Of a stretch of DNA of 35,460 nt, positions 3-14,701 are shown one piece after another (position 1 is the stretch's first letter; every line of letters begins with the position of its first letter). The position numbers and the translations under genes are program-made. Origin of the DNA: Treponema sp. (GTDB lineage Bacteria; Spirochaetota; Spirochaetia; Treponematales; Breznakiellaceae); contig WQXQ01000009.1 of NCBI GenBank assembly GCA_009784775.1, forward strand, positions 1-35,460, written 5' to 3'. The notes beneath the pieces were generated by a model. It was not told where the DNA came from. It worked only from the letters and a program-made list of their open reading frames with translations, and did no database searches.

Positions 3-887
3 AAGGCAAATATTTTTGCCTTGACCTACATATTAAGCCCTGAGTATACCGTTTACGCGGCAAAAAACGGACGCGATGCCGTTGAAATAGCGCAGGCTTA
101 TATGCCCGATGTTATTCTGCTGGATATTGTTATGCCCGAAATGGACGGATATGCAGTGATTACCGCGCTGAAAAGCTCGGAAAAAACGAAAGAGATCCCG
201 GTCATATTCATCACCGGGCTTTGCAATGCCGAAGCGGAAGAAAAAGGACTGGCGCTGGGCGCTTCGGATTATATAAGCAAACCTTTCAGTTCCGCGATTG
301 TTAAACTAAGAGTTCGGAATCAGATCCAGATACAGGATCAAATCAAAATGATAAAAGACTTTAGTATGACAGATCTGTTGACAGGTTTACCCAACAGGCG
401 CAGTTTTGATTATCGGCTGCAATTGGAATGGGAACATGCGAAAAGATATAAAACAGCGCTCAGTATTGTTATTGTTGATATAGATCGATTCAAGATGTAT
501 AACGACACATACGGACATTTGCAGGGTGATACGGCGCTCCAGTCAGTGGCAAATAATATTGAACAATCGCTTAATCGTTCAATTGATTTTGTCGCCCGTT
601 GGGGCGGCGAAGAATTTTTTATATTGCTGCCAACCACGAATTTATCCGGCGCGTTGAAGACTGCCGAAAATATTCGGCAGAATGTTGAAAATACCCCCAT
701 TCCCTATATCAACGACAAAATTACCAAAGTGACCATAAGCGCGGGTGTAAATACCATTACACCATTACGGGACGATTCTGCCCGGGATTTTATTGACAGA
801 GCCGATCAGGCAGTGTATACCGCAAAAAAAACAGGCCGAAACAGGGTCTGCGCATATGACGGTATAATCAATGGTGACGTTCCATGA
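3..887 (+). CDS. Response regulator diguanylate cyclase (REC-GGDEF), 5' truncated
   Basis: This protein makes cyclic di-GMP from two GTP under control of an N-terminal receiver domain. The reading frame is open through the left window edge, and a TTG at 21 is not a credible start because the residues before it (KANIFA) continue a receiver fold. About 10-25 N-terminal residues, with the acidic pocket, lie outside. The phospho-acceptor Asp is in the motif LLDIVMPEMDG, and the conserved Lys is in SKPF. A linker leads to a complete GGDEF domain that opens with TDLLTGLPNRR and has the active-site motif GGEEF. An RSID motif sits five residues before GGEEF, as expected for an intact product-inhibition (I) site. 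The last four bases (ATGA, 884-887) overlap the next gene, a hybrid kinase, so the two are probably co-translated partners. The REC-GGDEF order is the same as in WspR and PleD-like enzymes. Confidence 0.93.
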   Translation, partial: KANIFALTYILSPEYTVYAAKNGRDAVEIAQAYMPDVILLDIVMPEMDGYAVITALKSSEKTKEIPVIFITGLCNAEAEEKGLALGASDYISKPFSSAIVKLRVRNQIQIQDQIKMIKDFSMTDLLTGLPNRRSFDYRLQLEWEHAKRYKTALSIVIVDIDRFKMYNDTYGHLQGDTALQSVANNIEQSLNRSIDFVARWGGEEFFILLPTTNLSGALKTAENIRQNVENTPIPYINDKITKVTISAGVNTITPLRDDSARDFIDRADQAVYTAKKTGRNRVCAYDGIINGDVP

Positions 888-3493
888 GTTATTGGGTTAT
901 TGCCGCGATTATACTTGGTATTGTGGTGTTAGTAGCCTTTATATTCGCTTATGGCAGATATATACAATCCCGTCAGAAGTTATTCAAAAAAACGGCATTG
1001 TTTAACAACATGGAAAAACTGCTGCAATCCATGGATACCCTGATTGTCATAACGGAGATTGAGACCGATAATATCATTTTTGTGAATGAAAAAATGAAAA
1101 TGGATTTTGGTTTTACGGACGACGTTATCGGAGAAAAATGCTGGAAGGCCTTTGTCAAAGACGGTACAGAACGGTGCAAACACTGTCCTAAATATGATCC
1201 TGATTTTATCTCCGGCAAACCTGTTGTCTGGGAAAATCACAGTCCGATAACAAACCGGTATTACCGAATCATCAGCAGGTTTATTGACTGGCCGGACGGA
1301 ACAACCGTTTTTCTTGAACAATGCGATGACATAACCGAGCTGAAAGAATCAGCCGCCAATATGCTTGAGACGGATGAGTATACCCATCTTTTGTTTGACG
1401 CAATGCCGATGAGCTGCACGTTATGGGATAAAAATTTAAAAATCATAAATTGCAACAAGGCAGCGTTGAATCTGTTCGGGGTAAAAGACAAGGAAGAATT
1501 TAACGAACGATTTGCGGATTTATCGCCGGAGTTCCAGCCGAATGGGGAAAACAGCATTGAACTGGCTTTCACGACGATCAGGGAAACATTTGAACATAAA
1601 TATTTTTGCGTGGAGTGGATGCACCAGCTTCTTAACGGAGAGCCTTTACCCTGCGAAGTTACGCTTGTCCGTCTGAAACACAAGGGCGAATACCTTGTTG
1701 CCGGTTATACCAGAGACCTTAGAAAGCATAAAGCGTATCTTGATGAAATAAACAAGGCGCATGAGAATTTGCGTCTTGCGCGGGATGCCGCAGAAGCCGC
1801 CAATCAGGCCAAGTCTATCTTTATGGCCAATATGAGTCATGAGATCAGGACTCCCATGAACAGCATCATAGGATTTTCGGAGCTTGCGCAGGATGACGAT
1901 ATTTCTCCCAAAACCAAAAAATACCTTAGTAATATATCCGAAAGCGCGGAATGGCTGCTCCAGATTATAAACGATATTCTGGATATTTCCAAAATTGAAG
2001 CCGGTAAAATGGAATTGGAGCGTATTCCTTTTGATCTGCATGACATCTTTGCGCATTGTCAACTGGAAATTATGCCAAAAACAATGGAAAAAGGCATAAT
2101 TCTGTATTGTTATGCCGAACCGTCCATCGGGAAAAAAATGCTGGGCGATCCGCTCAGACTGCGTCAGACGCTTCTTAATCTTCTTTCCAACGCCGTAAAA
2201 TTTACCAACATTGGCGCCGTTAAACTGCTGGCATCGGTTAAAAAAACCGACAGCGGCAGTGTGACCATACATTTTGAAGTAAAAGACAGCGGCATTGGCA
2301 TGAGTCCCGATCAAATTGAAAAAATATTTGAGCCGTTTATACAGGCGGATGACAGTATTACGCGCAGATATGGCGGTACAGGGCTGGGGCTTACCATAAC
2401 CAGAAATATTATTAGTATGATGGGCGGTACGCTTCAGGTGGAAAGCGCATTTGGAGTTGGCAGCAAGTTTAGTTTTGAGCTGACCTTTGATATCATTGAT
2501 GATGATTCTGATATACCGTCTCCCAAAACCTCGTTTAAGGATATGGAACAACCTCGTTTTAAGGGCGAGGTGCTTGTTTGCGATGATAACAGTATGAATC
2601 AACAGGTAATTTGTGAACATCTTGAAAAAGTGGGTTTACAAACGGTCATAGCGGAGAATGGCAAAGTAGGCGTTGACATTGTTGCAGGGCGTATGCAAAA
2701 CGGCGAAAAACCGTTTGATTTGATTTTCATGGATATCCATATGCCGGTGATGGATGGGTTGGAGGCTGCGTCCAAAATTACCGAACTGGGATTGAAAACG
2801 CCCATTGTGGCAGTAACCGCAAATATAATGGCAAACGACCTGGAGCTTTATAGGGTAAGCGGAATAGCCGACTTTATTGGCAAACCGTTTACATCGCAGG
2901 AACTATGGAAATGCCTTGTTACGTATTTTTCGCCAGTGTCTTTTTCCATCATTGATACACACCGTCAGGCTATAGATAACGAAAACCTGCAAAAGCATCT
3001 GAAAGCGCATTTTGTCAAAAATAATCAGACTACCTATAGTCACATTACAAAGGCTATTGCCGCCGGTGATATCAGACTGGCGCACCGGTTGGCCCATACG
3101 CTAAAGACCAATGCGGGGCAAATTGATGAAAAACGGCTGCAGAAAGCCGCCGCCACCGTTGAGGGTATGCTTTCGACCGGGAAAAACCTGCTGACAGAAG
3201 CGCAAAGCAGAATCCTTGAAACCGAGCTGCAATCGGTTCTTGAGAAATTGGCAGTGTTTTCCAAAGCTAACGCGCCAGACAGCCCCAAAACCCTTGATGA
3301 CGAAAAGGCGCGCGAGCTGCTTGTACAATTGGAGCATATGCTTATAAACAGAAATCCTGAGTGCATCCATTTACTCGACGATATCCGCGCAATACCAAAA
3401 GCGGAAGAACTTGCGTGTTTAATAGAAGACTATGAATTTAAACAGGCAATTATCACGCTTTCCGGCCTTAAAGCAAGATTTGGCGTCCATTAG
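884..3493 (+). CDS. Membrane-anchored hybrid sensor histidine kinase (PAS-PAS-HisKA-HATPase-REC-HPt)
   Basis: An 869-residue phosphorelay kinase. One transmembrane helix lies at about residues 4-24. PAS-like domain 1 (about 40-155) contains a CKHC Cys pair that could bind a metal or sense redox state. PAS-like domain 2 spans about 160-280. The dimerisation/phosphotransfer domain has MSHEIRTPMN with His319. The ATPase domain shows the N box (LLNLLSNAVKFT), G1 (DSGIGM) and G2 (GGTGLGL). A receiver domain follows with Asp617 in MDIHMPVMDG, then a C-terminal HPt domain with His738 in AHTLKTNAG. This gives a full His-Asp-His relay, and the HPt could hand phosphate to the receiver of the overlapping cyclase upstream. 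The start overlaps the stop of that gene by ATGA. No large periplasmic sensor domain is present, so the signal is probably cytoplasmic or membrane-proximal. Confidence 0.93.
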   Translation: MSYWVIAAIILGIVVLVAFIFAYGRYIQSRQKLFKKTALFNNMEKLLQSMDTLIVITEIETDNIIFVNEKMKMDFGFTDDVIGEKCWKAFVKDGTERCKHCPKYDPDFISGKPVVWENHSPITNRYYRIISRFIDWPDGTTVFLEQCDDITELKESAANMLETDEYTHLLFDAMPMSCTLWDKNLKIINCNKAALNLFGVKDKEEFNERFADLSPEFQPNGENSIELAFTTIRETFEHKYFCVEWMHQLLNGEPLPCEVTLVRLKHKGEYLVAGYTRDLRKHKAYLDEINKAHENLRLARDAAEAANQAKSIFMANMSHEIRTPMNSIIGFSELAQDDDISPKTKKYLSNISESAEWLLQIINDILDISKIEAGKMELERIPFDLHDIFAHCQLEIMPKTMEKGIILYCYAEPSIGKKMLGDPLRLRQTLLNLLSNAVKFTNIGAVKLLASVKKTDSGSVTIHFEVKDSGIGMSPDQIEKIFEPFIQADDSITRRYGGTGLGLTITRNIISMMGGTLQVESAFGVGSKFSFELTFDIIDDDSDIPSPKTSFKDMEQPRFKGEVLVCDDNSMNQQVICEHLEKVGLQTVIAENGKVGVDIVAGRMQNGEKPFDLIFMDIHMPVMDGLEAASKITELGLKTPIVAVTANIMANDLELYRVSGIADFIGKPFTSQELWKCLVTYFSPVSFSIIDTHRQAIDNENLQKHLKAHFVKNNQTTYSHITKAIAAGDIRLAHRLAHTLKTNAGQIDEKRLQKAAATVEGMLSTGKNLLTEAQSRILETELQSVLEKLAVFSKANAPDSPKTLDDEKARELLVQLEHMLINRNPECIHLLDDIRAIPKAEELACLIEDYEFKQAIITLSGLKARFGVH

Positions 3494-3508
3494 GGTAAAC
3501 CGCATAGC

Positions 3509-3537
3509 TTGACGGTATTCACTGTCTATTGTATAAT
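3509..3537 (+). promoter_or_regulatory. Sigma-70-type promoter for the TIGR03546/TIGR03545 pair
   Basis: A -35 box TTGACG (3509-3514) and a perfect -10 box TATAAT (3532-3537) are 17 bp apart. Transcription would start near 3544, leaving a leader of about 20 nt that carries the AGGAGG at 3548-3553. It lies in the 70-bp gap after the hybrid kinase, so the following two genes are a separate transcription unit. Confidence 0.75.
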
Positions 3538-3563
3538 TACCGCACACAGGAGGTACTCCTTTA

Positions 3564-4082
3564 ATGATTAAAGTTGTTGCAAAACTTGTTGTCGCACTGA
3601 ATGGCAATATCAAAAAGACCCAGATTGCGGCAGGCATAGCCTGGGGGCTATTGCTCGGCTTGATTCCGGTAGGCAATTTTTTCTGGATTGTTCTTTTACT
3701 GGTTTCATTCTTTTTTAACCATCATCATGGGCTCATGATCGGGTTCATGCTTTTGTTCAAGCTGCTTTCGCCGCTGTTTGCGCCTGCGTTGGACTTGCTG
3801 GGCTGGGAAATTCTGCATATTGAAGCGTTGCAGCCCCTGTTTACCAGTATGTACAATATGCCCTTTGTGCCGTTTACCAAGTTCAATAATACGCTGGTTA
3901 CCGGCGGCCTGATTGCGGGTATTGTGTTGTTTGTTCCCACTTATTTTGTGCTTTTACCGATTATCAATGTGTATCGGAATACACTGGCGCCAAAAATTCG
4001 GAACCTGAAAATTGTCAAGACTATTACCAAATTTCCGCTTTTCTCGGTAATAGACAAGGCAATAACCAGCATGGGCGAGTAG
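3564..4082 (+). CDS. TIGR03546 family membrane protein
   Basis: A 172-residue integral membrane protein of unknown function. It has a basic N-terminal segment, then hydrophobic stretches at about residues 20-60 (two helices around FFWIVLLLVSFFF and a following segment), about 60-80, and about 110-140. Size and composition resemble DUF2062-like proteins, and its partner downstream matches TIGR03545. These two families are recorded as a two-gene pair found only in bacteria with an outer membrane. The start ATG at 3564 is preceded by a perfect AGGAGG at 3548-3553. The stop lies 12 bp before the next start. A role in the cell envelope is inferred from topology and pairing; no activity can be read from the sequence. 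Confidence 0.82.
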   Translation: MIKVVAKLVVALNGNIKKTQIAAGIAWGLLLGLIPVGNFFWIVLLLVSFFFNHHHGLMIGFMLLFKLLSPLFAPALDLLGWEILHIEALQPLFTSMYNMPFVPFTKFNNTLVTGGLIAGIVLFVPTYFVLLPIINVYRNTLAPKIRNLKIVKTITKFPLFSVIDKAITSMGE

Positions 4083-8661: not shown

Positions 8662-8690
8662 TTGTCTAACAGGCAAAAATGGGGTATTCT
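8662..8690 (+). promoter_or_regulatory. Candidate promoter for the phase-variable surface locus
   Basis: TTGTCT (8662-8667) and TATTCT (8685-8690) are 17 bp apart, each four of six consensus bases. Transcription would start near 8697, just ahead of AAGGAG (8704-8709) and a GTG at 8715. The element therefore lies upstream of the poly-C tract, which would be transcribed and translated. Confidence 0.45.
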
Positions 8691-8714
8691 ACCAAGCAGG
8701 ATGAAGGAGTTTTT

Positions 8715-8786
8715 GTGTTAAAACCGCGTATTTTTGACCCCATTTTACCCCCCCCCCCCCCATATATAGCGTACTTTTTAGCATAA
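8715..8786 (+). other. Leader reading frame leading into the poly-C tract
   Basis: AAGGAG at 8704-8709 is followed after 5 nt by GTG. The frame encodes MLKPRIFDPIL and a run of five Pro, then with 14 C it ends at TAA 8784-8786. With 15 C (or 12 C) it would instead join without a stop to the outer-membrane protein frame and supply its missing start. This is the likely true 5' end of the gene that continues at 8813. Confidence 0.6.
8748..8761 (+). repeat. Homopolymeric tract of 14 C
   Basis: An uninterrupted run of 14 C between a good translation start and a signal-peptide-coding stretch. Such tracts change length by slipped-strand mispairing and act as on/off switches for surface proteins. 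A sequencing or assembly error in length is possible and would have the same effect on the reading frame. Confidence 0.95.
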
Positions 8787-8797
8787 TAGCGAAAACC

Positions 8798-8813
8798 ACG
8801 CTATATATAGCGT
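8798..8813. promoter_or_regulatory. 16-bp perfect palindrome
   Basis: ACGCTATATATAGCGT is its own reverse complement. A partial copy (ATATATAGCGT) lies at 8762-8772, directly after the poly-C tract. The palindrome could be an operator, or simply a coding stretch for the signal peptide (residues TLYIA in the outer-membrane protein frame). Confidence 0.3.
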
Positions 8814-9730
8814 TGGTCGGTTTTGCTCATAGTCTGCTTTTTGCGGAAGAACCGGAAGGTTTTGCCCTGGATATTGACCGCTACTATATGTCTGTCACCC
8901 CTAAAATCCTGGAGGATGGGGTACAGACCGACCTTTTGTTTGGCATGTTCTATACAGATGCCATGAAAATGGCATGGGAAATAAGGCTCCGTTCTGTGAA
9001 TGGAGCGGCAAACGATACCATAAACGATATTGAGGATTCTCTTCTTGCCCGTGAGCGGCAGGTGTATGAAGTGTTTTTTCTGCCGTTAGATTATCACTTT
9101 TTAAGAAAATCAGGTTTTACCCTTCGGGCAGGAGCAGGGGGGTATTATAACTATAATAAACTGTACGAGAATGGATTTTTTAACGACCGCGATTTATATT
9201 ACCCTGCCTATACTGAGGATCATTACAGCGCTTATACCAATGATTTTACCGGCCATGCGGCAGGCCCTTTGCTGGATATTGGCCTTGCCTACAGCGGTAA
9301 ATATATCAGCAGTTCCTTCTCTTTTGGCTGCGTGCCGTTTTATTATTTGAAACGAGACCAGTTATTGAAAATCACGCCATATATGAATCCCACTCCTGTA
9401 TATACTGTTTCAAGCGAGAGTACCAGCAGTCCCTATCTGTACCAGATTTTGGATGTGGCGGTTAATCTAAAATATGTCTCTTTGTTTTTTTCCTTGATCA
9501 ATGAATACAGCAGGCTGCAATATACGGCTGCGGAGATATCCGGCGCAACCGGAGAATGGACAAATCTTGAGGTGGAAAAAATTAATAAAACTTTTGCCCT
9601 GGAAATATCATTGCTTGTTAATTTGGGGAAAAGCGGTTTTATGCCGCAACTTGGTTATGGAAGGATATTTGACGAAGTAAGCGGCGGCGGCAATTATATG
9701 TTGTTTGGTGTGAAAAAATTATTATTTTAG
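8813..9730 (+). CDS. Outer-membrane beta-barrel protein, 5' end separated by a poly-C frame switch
   Basis: The mature part is about 290 residues, rich in alternating aromatic/hydrophobic strands and Gly/Tyr turns, and ends in ...FGVKKLLF. The terminal Phe is the usual signal for outer-membrane barrel insertion. No specific family was recognised. The frame is open upstream to a stop at 8735. The bases just before 8813 encode AKTTLYIALVGFAHSLLFA followed by EEPEG, which is a convincing signal peptide and cleavage site, yet no ATG, GTG or TTG lies in this frame between 8738 and the TTG at 8813. TTG 8813 falls inside the signal peptide and has no ribosome-binding site. The missing start is most likely the GTG at 8715, out of frame by one base across the 14-C tract. 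The next gene starts 9 bp after the stop. Confidence 0.75.
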   Translation: MVGFAHSLLFAEEPEGFALDIDRYYMSVTPKILEDGVQTDLLFGMFYTDAMKMAWEIRLRSVNGAANDTINDIEDSLLARERQVYEVFFLPLDYHFLRKSGFTLRAGAGGYYNYNKLYENGFFNDRDLYYPAYTEDHYSAYTNDFTGHAAGPLLDIGLAYSGKYISSSFSFGCVPFYYLKRDQLLKITPYMNPTPVYTVSSESTSSPYLYQILDVAVNLKYVSLFFSLINEYSRLQYTAAEISGATGEWTNLEVEKINKTFALEISLLVNLGKSGFMPQLGYGRIFDEVSGGGNYMLFGVKKLLF

Positions 9731-9739
9731 GAGTACAAA

Positions 9740-12700
9740 ATGAAAAACAAAGTGTTAATTGTTTGTAGTGTATTGGCAGCACTGAGTGTGGGCGCTTGTA
9801 TTATGTCTGTGGATGATACAAAACCCGCTGCCGGCGAAACAATACGATATGCCGCTGAATTCCGCGGTGAATGGATACGCATGGATACCGGCGACCGCTG
9901 GTACATCAGCGGGAGTTCGATAAACGTAAACGGCGCAGCTTTATCTCTGGATGTAACGCTGCAAAGAACATCCGAGAATGTAGTAACAGCGCAGGCGGGC
10001 TCCAATAAATATACTCTTTTTGCGGCACGAGTTGCCAATGCCAGTTTCAATGCAAAGATAGAATATATTGACGGAAACGGCGCCGCTCAAAACAGGGTAA
10101 GCCGCGATTTAATTGGTACTGACGGGCAGCGGTTTATAGTAAAGCCTCGAAACCAACCGGATTTGGAGCAAATCGTGGAACCCGATCCTGTTACCGGTGA
10201 AATAAAAGTTGAAGGCATAATCCCCTGTGATACGGTAGATATAATTCCGGTTGATCCTGACTGGAACGATGTAACTGTAGGGCTTACTCCCGGTTTTGGC
10301 GAAGATCAAAATATGGGCGTTATTCCGCTTACGCATGGGGATAATTTCAAAGTATCGCTTATTGCGGATTATGCTGTTTCTGATATCTATGCGGATGGTA
10401 CTTCCCGTACCTATACATTTGAACTTGAAAATATCGGGACAACTGTTTGCGGAGAAACACGTCTGGAAGTATCCTGGGACAGTGATGATTTTTCTTTTAT
10501 TGGCGGTTCGGTCAGAGAAGATTATACCAATATCATTCCCGGAGAAAAAAAACAACTTACTTTAACCCTTGCTTCATTACCGATTGAAACTGAAACAAAA
10601 AACAAGGAATTTGAAATTAAAATCAGAAATTATGATTCCGTATCAATGAACATTAGAGAATGGGATGATGTGGTTTCGGTCAATTTTTATAATGCTTCGG
10701 TACCATTCCATTTTAGATCAGAAAAACAGGTTCAGGGCGTTATTAAAGCAAAGAATGGCAGGAGTTATTATTTTAAGACACAGGGTTCGGCAGGTAATTA
10801 TACTGCTATAATAAATGTACCCTGGTCAAAAGACGAATATACCATAGCATTTTTGGGTGCAACAATAGAATCTGGTTCCGCTACCAAGTATTCATTTGCA
10901 GTAGATGATCTGCCGCCATCGGATTGGAGTATGGTGGATATGTGGGAATTTTTAGGTGCCTATAAACCTGCTAATGCGTATGAATATTCAGCGCCTGTTC
11001 TGAACCTTGTTTCAGGCGAACGATCATTTATGGGTTATCTTGCCGGTGACAGTATTGATTATTACAAGGTTAAACTGGGTACACTGTCTGAAATGCGGCA
11101 GCGTACGGTTACTTTTCACGCCAATGGCGCTGACGGAGCAGCTCCGGCGGCTGTTACCAGGGAATATGGCACTGATATACAGCTTCCCGGTCAGGGTGTT
11201 ATGGCAAAAAGCGGATATCTTTTTGCCGGTTGGAATAGCAGTAGTTCCGGCGCCGGTATACACTATGATGCTGATTCTTTTTACACCATTAGCGGCGACG
11301 TTATCCTGTATGCGCAATGGGGTATTTCCTGCACGGTAATGTTTGACGCCGATGGGGGAATCGGCATAGTCCCGATGCCCATAACTGTTGTTTCAGGTAC
11401 CGGCATACAACTGCCCGATCAAGGTGAGCTGACAAAAGATGGGTATGTTTTTACCGGCTGGAGTTCCGGTACCCATCACAACGCCGGTTCCATTTACATA
11501 ATTACCGGTAACGTTACTCTCTATGCGGTATGGTTACCTGTTTACGCTGTTGTGTACGATGCCAATGGCGGTAGCGGGACAATGGCAAATACCCATTTTA
11601 TTGCCGGCGAATCGCAAAACCTGCGGGAAAACGCCTTTACCCGCACTGGTTATACCTTTATGGGCTGGGCTGTTTCTGATTCCGGTCTGGTTACATACAC
11701 AAACGGACAGAGTGTCAGTAATCTGACCACTACGGCGGGAGCTGCAATAACGCTGTATGCAGTGTGGAACGCCAATATTTACATGGTGGTCTACCATGCC
11801 AATGGCGGCAGCGGGTCTATGGGAAATTCCAGCTTTATCTACGATATATCGCAAAACCTGCGACCCAATACTTTTACCAATGCCGATTATATATTTGTGG
11901 GTTGGGCGGATTCCTCTGCCGGAATGGTGGTATACTCAGACGAAGAGAGCGTCAACAATCTGACCGCTGCGGCGGGAGGTACGGTAACACTGTACGCGGT
12001 ATGGACTGTCAGAACATTCTTGGTAGCTTACGATCCCAATGGCGGTAGCGGCAGCATGGAAAATTCCAGCTTTACCTACGGCACGCCGCAAAACCTTCAG
12101 GCAAACACCTTTACCCGTATCGGTTATTTTTTCGCCGGTTGGGCGACATCCGCAGCCGGACCAATGGTATATACAAATGAGCAGAGTGTGAGTAATCTGA
12201 CAGCGGCCGCAGGAGGCACTGTAACACTGTATGCAGTATGGACCGGCAATGCCTATATGGTTGCCTACAATGCCAATGGTGGCACAGGAAATATGGAAAA
12301 CTCCAATTTAACTTACGGCACACCGCAAAATCTGCGCATGAACACCTTAACCTGTACGAATTTTGTTTTTGCCGGCTGGGCAACTGATCCTGCCGGAACA
12401 GTAGTATACGTAAACGGAGAAAGTGTCAGCAATCTCACAACTACGGCAGGAGCGACAATTGCGTTGTATGCAATATGGACTCCTGTCTACACCGTGGCTT
12501 ACAATGCCAATGGCGGCACCGGGAGTATGAGCAATTCCAATTTTACCTATGGCGTACCGCAAAATCTTAGGACAAACACCTTTACCCGAACTAATTACAT
12601 CTTCATGGGCTGGGCAGAATCCGCTTTTGGTCAGGTGGTATATACAGATGGAGAAAGTGTCAGCAACTTGACGGCGGCGGCAGGAGTAACGGTAACATTG

Positions 12701-14701
12701 TTTGCAGTGTGGGTGCAAAGCTACACAGTAGTTTACCATGCTAACGGCGGAAGCGGTTCTATGGGAAATTCTATTTTTCCTTACGGCATATCCCGGAATC
12801 TGCGTGCAAACACCTTTACGTACCCCGGTTACTCATTCGCAGGTTGGACAACATCTGAATCCGGTACTGTGGTATATACAGATGCAGAGAGTGTCAGCGA
12901 TCTGACAGCTATGGCAGGAGGCATTGTAACATTGTATGCGGTTTGGACTGGTAATCCCTATACTGTTACTTACAATGCCAACGGCGGAAATGGTTCTATG
13001 GAAACTTCCGGTTTTACCTATGGCGTATTACAAAATCTGCCGGAAAATACTTTTTCACTTACCAACTATAGGTTCATTGGCTGGGCTGTTTCTCCTTCCG
13101 GCACTGTCGTATACACAGACGGACAGAATGTCAGCAATCTGACTACAGAGGCCGCAGTAACGCTGTACGCGGTTTGGGCTCCTGTCTACATAGTGGCGTA
13201 TGATGCCAATGGCGGCAGCGGTTCTATGGAAAATTCCAGCTTTGCATACGGAGTACCGGGAAATTTGCGGGCAAACACCTTTACGCTTACAAACTATGCC
13301 CTGGTGGGCTGGGCTGCTTCTGCTGCCGGTCCGGTTGTATATACGGATATGCAAAGCATAAGCAACCTGACTGCTGTACCGGGGGCTGTGATAACTATAT
13401 ATGCAGTATGGTCTCCTGCTTACACAGTCGTATACAATGCTAACGGCGGAATTGGTTTTATGGAAGATTCCAGCTTTACCTACGGTGTCCCAGGAAATCT
13501 GCAGGTTAATACTTATACCCGCACAGACTTTGCCTTCAGGGGTTGGGCTGTTTCCGATTCTGATCCGGTTGTGTACACAGACGCGCAAAGTATTATGAAC
13601 CTGACAGATACACCGGGGGATGTGATAACGTTATACGCGGTATGGCTTCCGATTGTTCCCGGCAGCACTCTTGCCGAAAAATTGGCCTGGTTACAAACAA
13701 ATGCCGAAAGTAATGTTGATTATCTCATTGAAGTAACCGCTAACGAAAGCATTACTTCCCATACCCTTTTCTACAGCGGAAGAACCAATATAGGAATTAT
13801 TCTGAGAAGTGCTGCGGCGCGTACCATTAGTTTGTCATCCAATGGATCATTGTTTACCATAAGTAGCGGAGCAACGCTTACTTTGGAAGATAATATTACT
13901 TTTAATGGAAGAAGCAATAATAATGATTCATTAATTCGTATAAGTGGAGGCGGAAGATTCATCATGAACGGAGGCAATATCTCCGGAAATACAAACTATC
14001 ACAATGCCAACTCAGCTGTCTCCGTTAACGCCCACGGCAGTGGAGTGTATGTAAACACCGGCGGAACCTTCATCATGAATGGCGGAAATATTTCCAATAA
14101 TGTGGCTTCCACCCGCTCTATCTACAGCAATAGCTATGCTACCTCTTATGGTGGCGGGGTGTATGTAAACACCAACGGAACCTTTATAATGAACAGCGGC
14201 GAAATCTCCGGCAATAATAGAGCTACTTCCGAAGTTACAGCCTTCAGCTATGCTACCTCTTATGGCGGCGGTGTATATGTAACTGGCGGAACCTTCATCA
14301 TGAACGGTGGGAGAATCTCTGGTAATAGAGTTGCTTCCAACGCTACCTCCTCAACACAGGCAGGCCGTTCTATTGCCTACGGCGGCGGAGTATATGCAAC
14401 CGGTGGAACCTTCACTATGAATGGCGGGACCATCTCCGGTACGGCATCCTCCGATAATGCTAATACCAATAGATGGGATTACCATGCTTCCTATGGCGGC
14501 GGCGTGTATACCAGTGGCGGAACTTTCAGAATAACCAACGGAACAATCTCAGGATCATCCATCGGAGCCGGCTCTAATTATGGCGCAGCACTGTATGGCA
14601 GTGCTCAATACGGCACATTTAACGGCGACACATGGCGCAGTAATGGCGGTCTGAACACAACCAACAACACCATCCGGGTGGTGAATGGGGTGTTGCAGTA
14701 A
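9740..14701 (+). CDS. Giant surface lipoprotein with InlB-type repeats and beta-helix C-terminus
   Basis: A 1653-residue lipoprotein. The signal peptide ends in the lipobox SVGAC (Cys20). Residues about 210-310 look like a CARDB/Ig-like beta-sandwich (FELENIG, PGEKKQLTLTL). From about 455 to 1300 there are 11 repeats of the Listeria-Bacteroides (InlB B / Flg_new) type: two divergent copies, then nine of about 78 residues with YxANGGxGxM ... FxGWA ... VYT ... SVSNLT ... VTLYAVW. The C-terminal third (about 1330-1630) has six short repeats of the form GGTFIMNGGxISGN separated by GGGVYV, the pattern of a right-handed parallel beta-helix. No catalytic motif or barrel anchor is seen. An adhesin or surface polymer-binding role is inferred. 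The ATG follows TAGGAG, which overlaps the stop of the outer-membrane protein gene, so expression may depend on the upstream switch. Confidence 0.88.
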   Translation: MKNKVLIVCSVLAALSVGACIMSVDDTKPAAGETIRYAAEFRGEWIRMDTGDRWYISGSSINVNGAALSLDVTLQRTSENVVTAQAGSNKYTLFAARVANASFNAKIEYIDGNGAAQNRVSRDLIGTDGQRFIVKPRNQPDLEQIVEPDPVTGEIKVEGIIPCDTVDIIPVDPDWNDVTVGLTPGFGEDQNMGVIPLTHGDNFKVSLIADYAVSDIYADGTSRTYTFELENIGTTVCGETRLEVSWDSDDFSFIGGSVREDYTNIIPGEKKQLTLTLASLPIETETKNKEFEIKIRNYDSVSMNIREWDDVVSVNFYNASVPFHFRSEKQVQGVIKAKNGRSYYFKTQGSAGNYTAIINVPWSKDEYTIAFLGATIESGSATKYSFAVDDLPPSDWSMVDMWEFLGAYKPANAYEYSAPVLNLVSGERSFMGYLAGDSIDYYKVKLGTLSEMRQRTVTFHANGADGAAPAAVTREYGTDIQLPGQGVMAKSGYLFAGWNSSSSGAGIHYDADSFYTISGDVILYAQWGISCTVMFDADGGIGIVPMPITVVSGTGIQLPDQGELTKDGYVFTGWSSGTHHNAGSIYIITGNVTLYAVWLPVYAVVYDANGGSGTMANTHFIAGESQNLRENAFTRTGYTFMGWAVSDSGLVTYTNGQSVSNLTTTAGAAITLYAVWNANIYMVVYHANGGSGSMGNSSFIYDISQNLRPNTFTNADYIFVGWADSSAGMVVYSDEESVNNLTAAAGGTVTLYAVWTVRTFLVAYDPNGGSGSMENSSFTYGTPQNLQANTFTRIGYFFAGWATSAAGPMVYTNEQSVSNLTAAAGGTVTLYAVWTGNAYMVAYNANGGTGNMENSNLTYGTPQNLRMNTLTCTNFVFAGWATDPAGTVVYVNGESVSNLTTTAGATIALYAIWTPVYTVAYNANGGTGSMSNSNFTYGVPQNLRTNTFTRTNYIFMGWAESAFGQVVYTDGESVSNLTAAAGVTVTLFAVWVQSYTVVYHANGGSGSMGNSIFPYGISRNLRANTFTYPGYSFAGWTTSESGTVVYTDAESVSDLTAMAGGIVTLYAVWTGNPYTVTYNANGGNGSMETSGFTYGVLQNLPENTFSLTNYRFIGWAVSPSGTVVYTDGQNVSNLTTEAAVTLYAVWAPVYIVAYDANGGSGSMENSSFAYGVPGNLRANTFTLTNYALVGWAASAAGPVVYTDMQSISNLTAVPGAVITIYAVWSPAYTVVYNANGGIGFMEDSSFTYGVPGNLQVNTYTRTDFAFRGWAVSDSDPVVYTDAQSIMNLTDTPGDVITLYAVWLPIVPGSTLAEKLAWLQTNAESNVDYLIEVTANESITSHTLFYSGRTNIGIILRSAAARTISLSSNGSLFTISSGATLTLEDNITFNGRSNNNDSLIRISGGGRFIMNGGNISGNTNYHNANSAVSVNAHGSGVYVNTGGTFIMNGGNISNNVASTRSIYSNSYATSYGGGVYVNTNGTFIMNSGEISGNNRATSEVTAFSYATSYGGGVYVTGGTFIMNGGRISGNRVASNATSSTQAGRSIAYGGGVYATGGTFTMNGGTISGTASSDNANTNRWDYHASYGGGVYTSGGTFRITNGTISGSSIGAGSNYGAALYGSAQYGTFNGDTWRSNGGLNTTNNTIRVVNGVLQ
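11541..13650 (+). repeat. Nine tandem approximately 235-bp intragenic repeats
   Basis: The nine full-length InlB-type units are recognisable at DNA level, each with a GCCAATGGCGG-like core (for example near 11561, 11799, 12031, 12267, 12505, 12739, 12976, 13204 and 13440). Spacing is about 230-240 bp. Copies are diverged enough that recent expansion is not obvious, but recombination between them could change copy number. Confidence 0.85.
13930..14600 (+). repeat. Six beta-helix repeats in the lipoprotein tail
   Basis: Related coding units with the core ACCTTCATCATGAACGG occur six times with variable Ser/Thr/Asn/Ala-rich spacers. They encode GG-x-F-x-M-N-G-G-x-I-S-G-N coils. Unit spacing is irregular (about 80-130 bp). 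Confidence 0.8.

Follow-up and report, generated by a model that had tools for sequence, protein, structure and literature searches.

A run of 14 cytosines at the beginning of an outer-membrane beta-barrel gene of Treponema sp. very probably makes this gene a translational simple-sequence contingency locus. The gene belongs to the window, by which we mean the whole analyzed stretch of 35,460 nucleotides, contig 9 (WQXQ01000009.1) of a 2.4 Mb genome in 153 contigs. At the sequence level, the tract stands between a start codon and a signal peptide, its length decides the reading frame, the same architecture recurs in homologues with tracts of differing lengths and phases, and the leader in front of the tract is kept in tract-free paralogues. 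We also infer that the tract slips in living cells and that the product is exposed at the surface. According to the mechanism that we propose, ribosomes would start at the GTG at 8715, or possibly at an ATG at 8679, and read the leader and then the tract, which encodes a run of prolines; only with a tract length that is a multiple of 3 would they continue into the signal peptide and the barrel. Long simple repeats are hypermutable, and slipped-strand mispairing in replication would add or remove Cs, switching the gene ON or OFF between daughter cells. In the OFF state, the large surface lipoprotein encoded downstream would probably be lowered as well, via lost translational coupling or polarity.

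All the features of the locus lie on the forward strand. The Shine-Dalgarno (SD) sequence AAGGAG (8704-8709) is found 5 nt upstream of the GTG start, which opens the leader VLKPRIFDPIL (8715-8747), homologous in the related loci L055, L060, L065, L285, and L059. The 14 Cs follow at 8748-8761 and, at this length, the leader frame translates as VLKPRIFDPILPPPPPYIAYFLA and ends at a TAA (8784-8786); SD, start, tract, and stop are where an earlier note on this DNA had placed them. The barrel frame is open from the tract to 9730, with the C-terminal end ...KKLLF, and its first part is the signal peptide region IYSVLFSIIAKTTLYIALVGFAHSLLFA (8762-8845), called by hydropathy and alignment with homologues only. 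We translated the leader with tracts of 8 to 20 C. Results showed that 9, 12, 15, and 18 C, all multiples of 3, give a product of 336 to 339 residues and that all other lengths give products of 16 to 25 residues. A change in the number of Cs therefore toggles the reading frame, the assembled C14 being OFF, and the earlier proposal that one more C or two fewer would join leader and barrel is borne out, as 15 and 12 C are both ON. The same note had seen no usable start in the barrel frame and, indeed, the sole start codon of this frame upstream of the mature protein is a TTG at 8813, which has no SD and falls within the signal peptide, 11 residues short of the cleavage site. With an SD and a start upstream and no usable start downstream, the repeat sits inside the translated region, 3' of the start codon.

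The earlier note had described the locus as a combination of promoter, start, tract, and orphan signal peptide. The last three stand, but the promoter is only weak: the possible elements TTGTCT (8663-8668) and TATTCT (8685-8690), 16 nt apart, share 8 of 12 bases with the consensus and are below the threshold of our promoter scan of the window, which for this reason did not report them. The alternative in-frame ATG upstream of the GTG (8679-8681) is without a clear SD. The weakness of the promoter before GTG 8715 is a point against the proposed switch, and so is the unusually long n-region that the leader gives before the signal peptide. Two other candidates were rejected in the same region, namely an RNA structure at the inverted repeat 8762-8808, which was no better than shuffles, and the C tract as a dispersed repeat element, the genome holding just one other 22-nt match.

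The tract could instead act on transcription, as a spacer between -35 and -10 elements like those of T. pallidum tp0126 and tprL, the leader being accidental. Promoter poly-G tracts are in fact used by T. pallidum (PMC7864442), the window's genome has some other C tracts with TATATAG after them, and the tract of the window is flanked by TTGACC (8734-8739) as -35 and TATATA (8763-8768) as -10, with 9 of 12 consensus bases. On the contrary, the spacer between these elements is 23 nt at 14 C, the leader appears to be translated in tract-free paralogues, and at the other five tract loci no pair that straddles the tract exceeds 8 of 12 matches at a workable spacing. The T. pallidum arrangement, a tract between -35 and -10 with a start downstream, is thus not what the window contains, where the only downstream start is the TTG inside the signal peptide. 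As there is no downstream start codon, and as the arrangement is absent at the other five loci, the promoter model of T. pallidum fails here, and we consider transcriptional phase variation very unlikely.

Returning to a switch of the reading frame, we looked at the distribution of the barrel. Homologues were found in 12 of 149 genomes of relatives and, in a subsequent search of the family, in 23 of 200; viral contigs yielded no relatives. The named carriers are Treponema and Spirochaetaceae MAGs, such as Emb289P3bin141 and Co191P3bin12, and sample codes of this type correspond to the guts of Embiratermes neotenicus and Cornitermes sp. (PMC7024585). Judging from these barrel-bearing relatives, the organism of the window would be a termite-gut Treponema.

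Including the window, six loci have a tract of 12 to 19 Cs that follows an upstream start and precedes the signal peptide. At their assembled lengths, L055 (C18), L060 (C16), and L285 (C12) are ON and the window (C14), L065 (C12), and L075 (C19) are OFF, considering that an assembly may miscount a homopolymer by one base, an error that would alter single-locus ON/OFF calls but not the architecture. No ATG or GTG is present in the barrel frame between the tract and the mature protein in any of the six. The order of start, tract, and signal peptide in five further homologues, in both phases, makes translational phase variation, as read by the earlier note, the best-supported explanation. By hand arithmetic from tract counts, about 24 homologous loci would together be expected to have about 0.02 C-runs of at least 11 within the 150 nt that precede the mature protein, and six were observed (five without the window); the whole 2.4 Mb genome of the window has 13 such runs.

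Across species and paralogues, with one genome per species, the tract has 12, 14, 16, 18, or 19 Cs or is missing. The earlier note had set against its own reading a fixed tract length, or homologues that start at an ATG downstream of the tract; the lengths differ, and homologues whose start is right at the signal peptide, for example L054, are without a tract. In L267 and L269, a C tract is found further upstream of a gene that has its own SD and ATG, and the remaining barrel loci have no tract near the start. That most homologues lack the tract, among them the nearest one (L054, 70% identical), is a further point against the switch.

The variation in length also bears on the idea that the tract is in reality fixed, OFF being a one-base assembly error in a gene that stays on at all times and has a poly-proline leader. 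Short-read assembly is prone to errors in homopolymer length, and many of the C tracts in these MAGs are at contig ends. We nevertheless find this explanation distinctly unlikely, considering the 12 to 19 Cs, in both phases, of relatives and paralogues from separate assemblies and the hypermutability of long G/C runs in other bacteria, as in fetA and pilC1 (PMC5231331). Another way to read through a single reading-frame step, which is what the break at the tract amounts to, would be transcriptional slippage or ribosomal frameshifting on the 14-C run, giving a low constant level of product and not a heritable switch. RNA polymerase can slip on long homopolymers. However, three loci are in frame and three are out, as free length drift predicts, and lengths and phases are unconserved, unlike those of programmed frameshift sites, making this alternative highly improbable.

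Where translation begins could be judged from the copies without a tract. G062, a Treponema MAG of another genus, has three paralogues: L059 with no tract, L065 with C12 out of frame, and L285 with C12 in frame. In the aligned start regions, the SD and ATTATGAA(C/T)A are common to tract and tract-free copies, and in the latter the SD-ATG leader stays in frame across a short segment rich in C and on into the signal peptide. Because the tract-free copies keep this leader, read into the signal peptide, the alignment indicates that translation starts before the tract. L055 also has a good promoter, the end of which is 7 nt upstream of the leader ATG.

We mapped the tract-in-leader label on a maximum-likelihood tree of 26 barrels, in which fine placements are unsure (the distant L063 is on a long branch and L285 covers 31% of columns). 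The label takes 6 changes for 6 rows; well-supported branches force at least 5 of these changes, and the label shows no more clustering than when it is shuffled. The tract is scattered on the family tree and has therefore been acquired or lost at this one position several times, at least five.

We can be confident that the predicted product is an outer-membrane beta-barrel protein with a signal peptide, the latter by hydropathy. AlphaFold, structural matches, and homologues agree on a mature barrel at 8846-9730 that ends in Phe, modeled with 14 strands (pLDDT 87.8, pTM 0.81). Structural matches reach a Z of up to 18.2, Foldseek also gave outer-membrane barrels and, as regards a named family, the matches are spread over several: NanC/KdgM-type porins, autotransporter barrels, OpcA, and OmpT. 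No Pfam or NCBIfam model matched the barrel, and a PDB sequence search with it gave nothing significant. The frame break at C14 and the weak promoter might also be those of a decaying pseudogene with a chance C run. This is extremely unlikely for a barrel frame that has 322 codons without a break, shares 70% identity with an intact relative, folds confidently, and is followed by a conserved lipoprotein gene.

This neighbor encodes a lipoprotein of 1653 residues with Listeria-Bacteroides repeats (9740-14701, forward strand), likely co-expressed with the barrel. It begins 9 nt 3' of the barrel stop, and its SD AGGAG (9729-9733), by direct reading, overlaps the barrel's TAG (9728-9730). From this overlap of SD and stop codon, it is plausible that the state of the tract affects the lipoprotein too. 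A lipoprotein-like gene lies 9 to 21 nt 3' of the barrel in L068, L069, L072, L075, L060, and L058, with a TAG-GAG overlap similar to that of the window in L068 and L069; L070, L071, L074, and L076 have no close barrel-lipoprotein pair at this distance. A GEWIRMDTG-like N-terminal motif is common to the window, L068, L069, and L072 (GEWVRMDTG), and L073 has GEWVRIDTG further downstream of its barrel. We also observed that this N-terminal region is common to downstream partners that otherwise differ among relatives, and that the lipoprotein of the window has 11 stretches matched to the Listeria-Bacteroides repeat (Pfam PF09479).

As a type, the locus has well-known counterparts. The run of Neisseria pilC lies near the signal-peptide region. 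In pilC1, a coding-region poly-G going from G10 to G9 turns the gene from on to off (PMC5231331), and the window resembles it in having a G/C homopolymer in the coding region, where a one-base change gives a frameshift and a truncated product. Protein and phylum are unrelated, however, and in the window, unlike pilC1, a separate leader ahead of the signal peptide holds the tract, and a lipoprotein gene follows the barrel at close distance. Poly-G phase variation is also known for tp0126, tprL, and tprE/G/J of T. pallidum (PMC7864442), a member of the same family in the broad sense; these share with the window the presence of homopolymers at outer-membrane protein genes, and the likeness that we can point to is one of tract and gene type. 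Their tract is in the promoter and alters the transcript level, whereas that of the window is between start and signal peptide and alters the frame. In Neisseria opc and fetA, a poly-C tract controls an outer-membrane protein gene as in the window (PMC7864442, PMC5231331), but from the promoter, again altering the transcript level. A literature search combining termite, Treponema, and phase variation gave no report of such a switch, the lone joint mention being unrelated, and one on spirochaetes and contingency loci gave T. pallidum-type work only. The locus thus looks like a well-known type for which no earlier report in termite-gut Treponema was found in the literature searched.

We also looked at long homopolymers in general. 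Leaving the window aside, the full design is present at 5 of 97 C tracts and at 3 of 90 G tracts, compared to 2.4% of random positions, and one of the 5 C-tract cases (L240) resembles an ordinary transporter; the general enrichment is modest and only suggestive, a lead and not a result. The idea that C tracts in general mark such loci genus-wide was rejected, since most are found at the ends of contigs, between genes, or in some other context. Unrelated lipoprotein genes of the genus with the same design are L106 (genome G011, C19), L196 (G005, C16), and L247 (G005, C18), all out of frame from their ATGs at the assembled lengths. Each has an upstream ATG, C16 to C19, and a lipobox signal peptide without its own start, and L247 encodes Ig-like Big_3 repeats. 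In the window's genome (G000), contig 105 carries C20 at 35-54 (L173), followed by the lipoprotein signal FPLRLTSKFFLLTTLTLFFLLSC and a lipoprotein frame of 1194 codons (55-3639) that encodes GLUG and FGE-sulfatase domains and lacks an ATG for 187 codons; any leader is cut off by the contig start. A mirror image of the poly-C design was seen in L149 and L249 (minus strand), each with G13 near 1999 directly before a lipobox signal peptide without its own start.

Long poly-C runs are far commoner within about 100 bases of contig ends than inside contigs, as on contigs 51, 66, 68, 78, 83, 92, 105, 110, and 131 of G000 and on many contigs of G031, G008, and G020. Long C tracts probably break short-read assemblies, and those at contig ends may hide further cases or may in part be assembly artefacts. 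G062 (e.g., L205-L242) has 75 C-runs of at least 11, most of them inside contigs; in one (L232), the run is directly 3' of the lipobox of a solute-binding-like protein. In G000, TATATAG follows the C run after one or two bases in L002/L040 (contig 68), L017 (contig 51), and L038 (contig 55). These might be -10 elements of promoter-type switches, and a repeat-rich lipoprotein-like gene lies downstream of the contig 68 tract.

Phase variation is best documented in pathogens, where the usual explanation is immune escape. A recurrent frame switch, gained or lost many times over, on an outer-membrane protein and the adjacent lipoprotein of spirochaetes with termite-gut symbionts as named relatives would suggest a different pressure, for instance one from phages, predators, or competitors, or one linked to attachment. 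It also brings translational frame switching to a bacterial group in which the literature cases that we found are transcriptional. More tentatively, and with more doubt than confidence, we suggest that termite-gut treponemes may have a switchable repertoire, made up of large surface lipoproteins and of pairs of barrel and lipoprotein, that uses this same design of leader, poly-C, and signal peptide; much of the repertoire would be hidden at contig ends where tracts break short-read assemblies.
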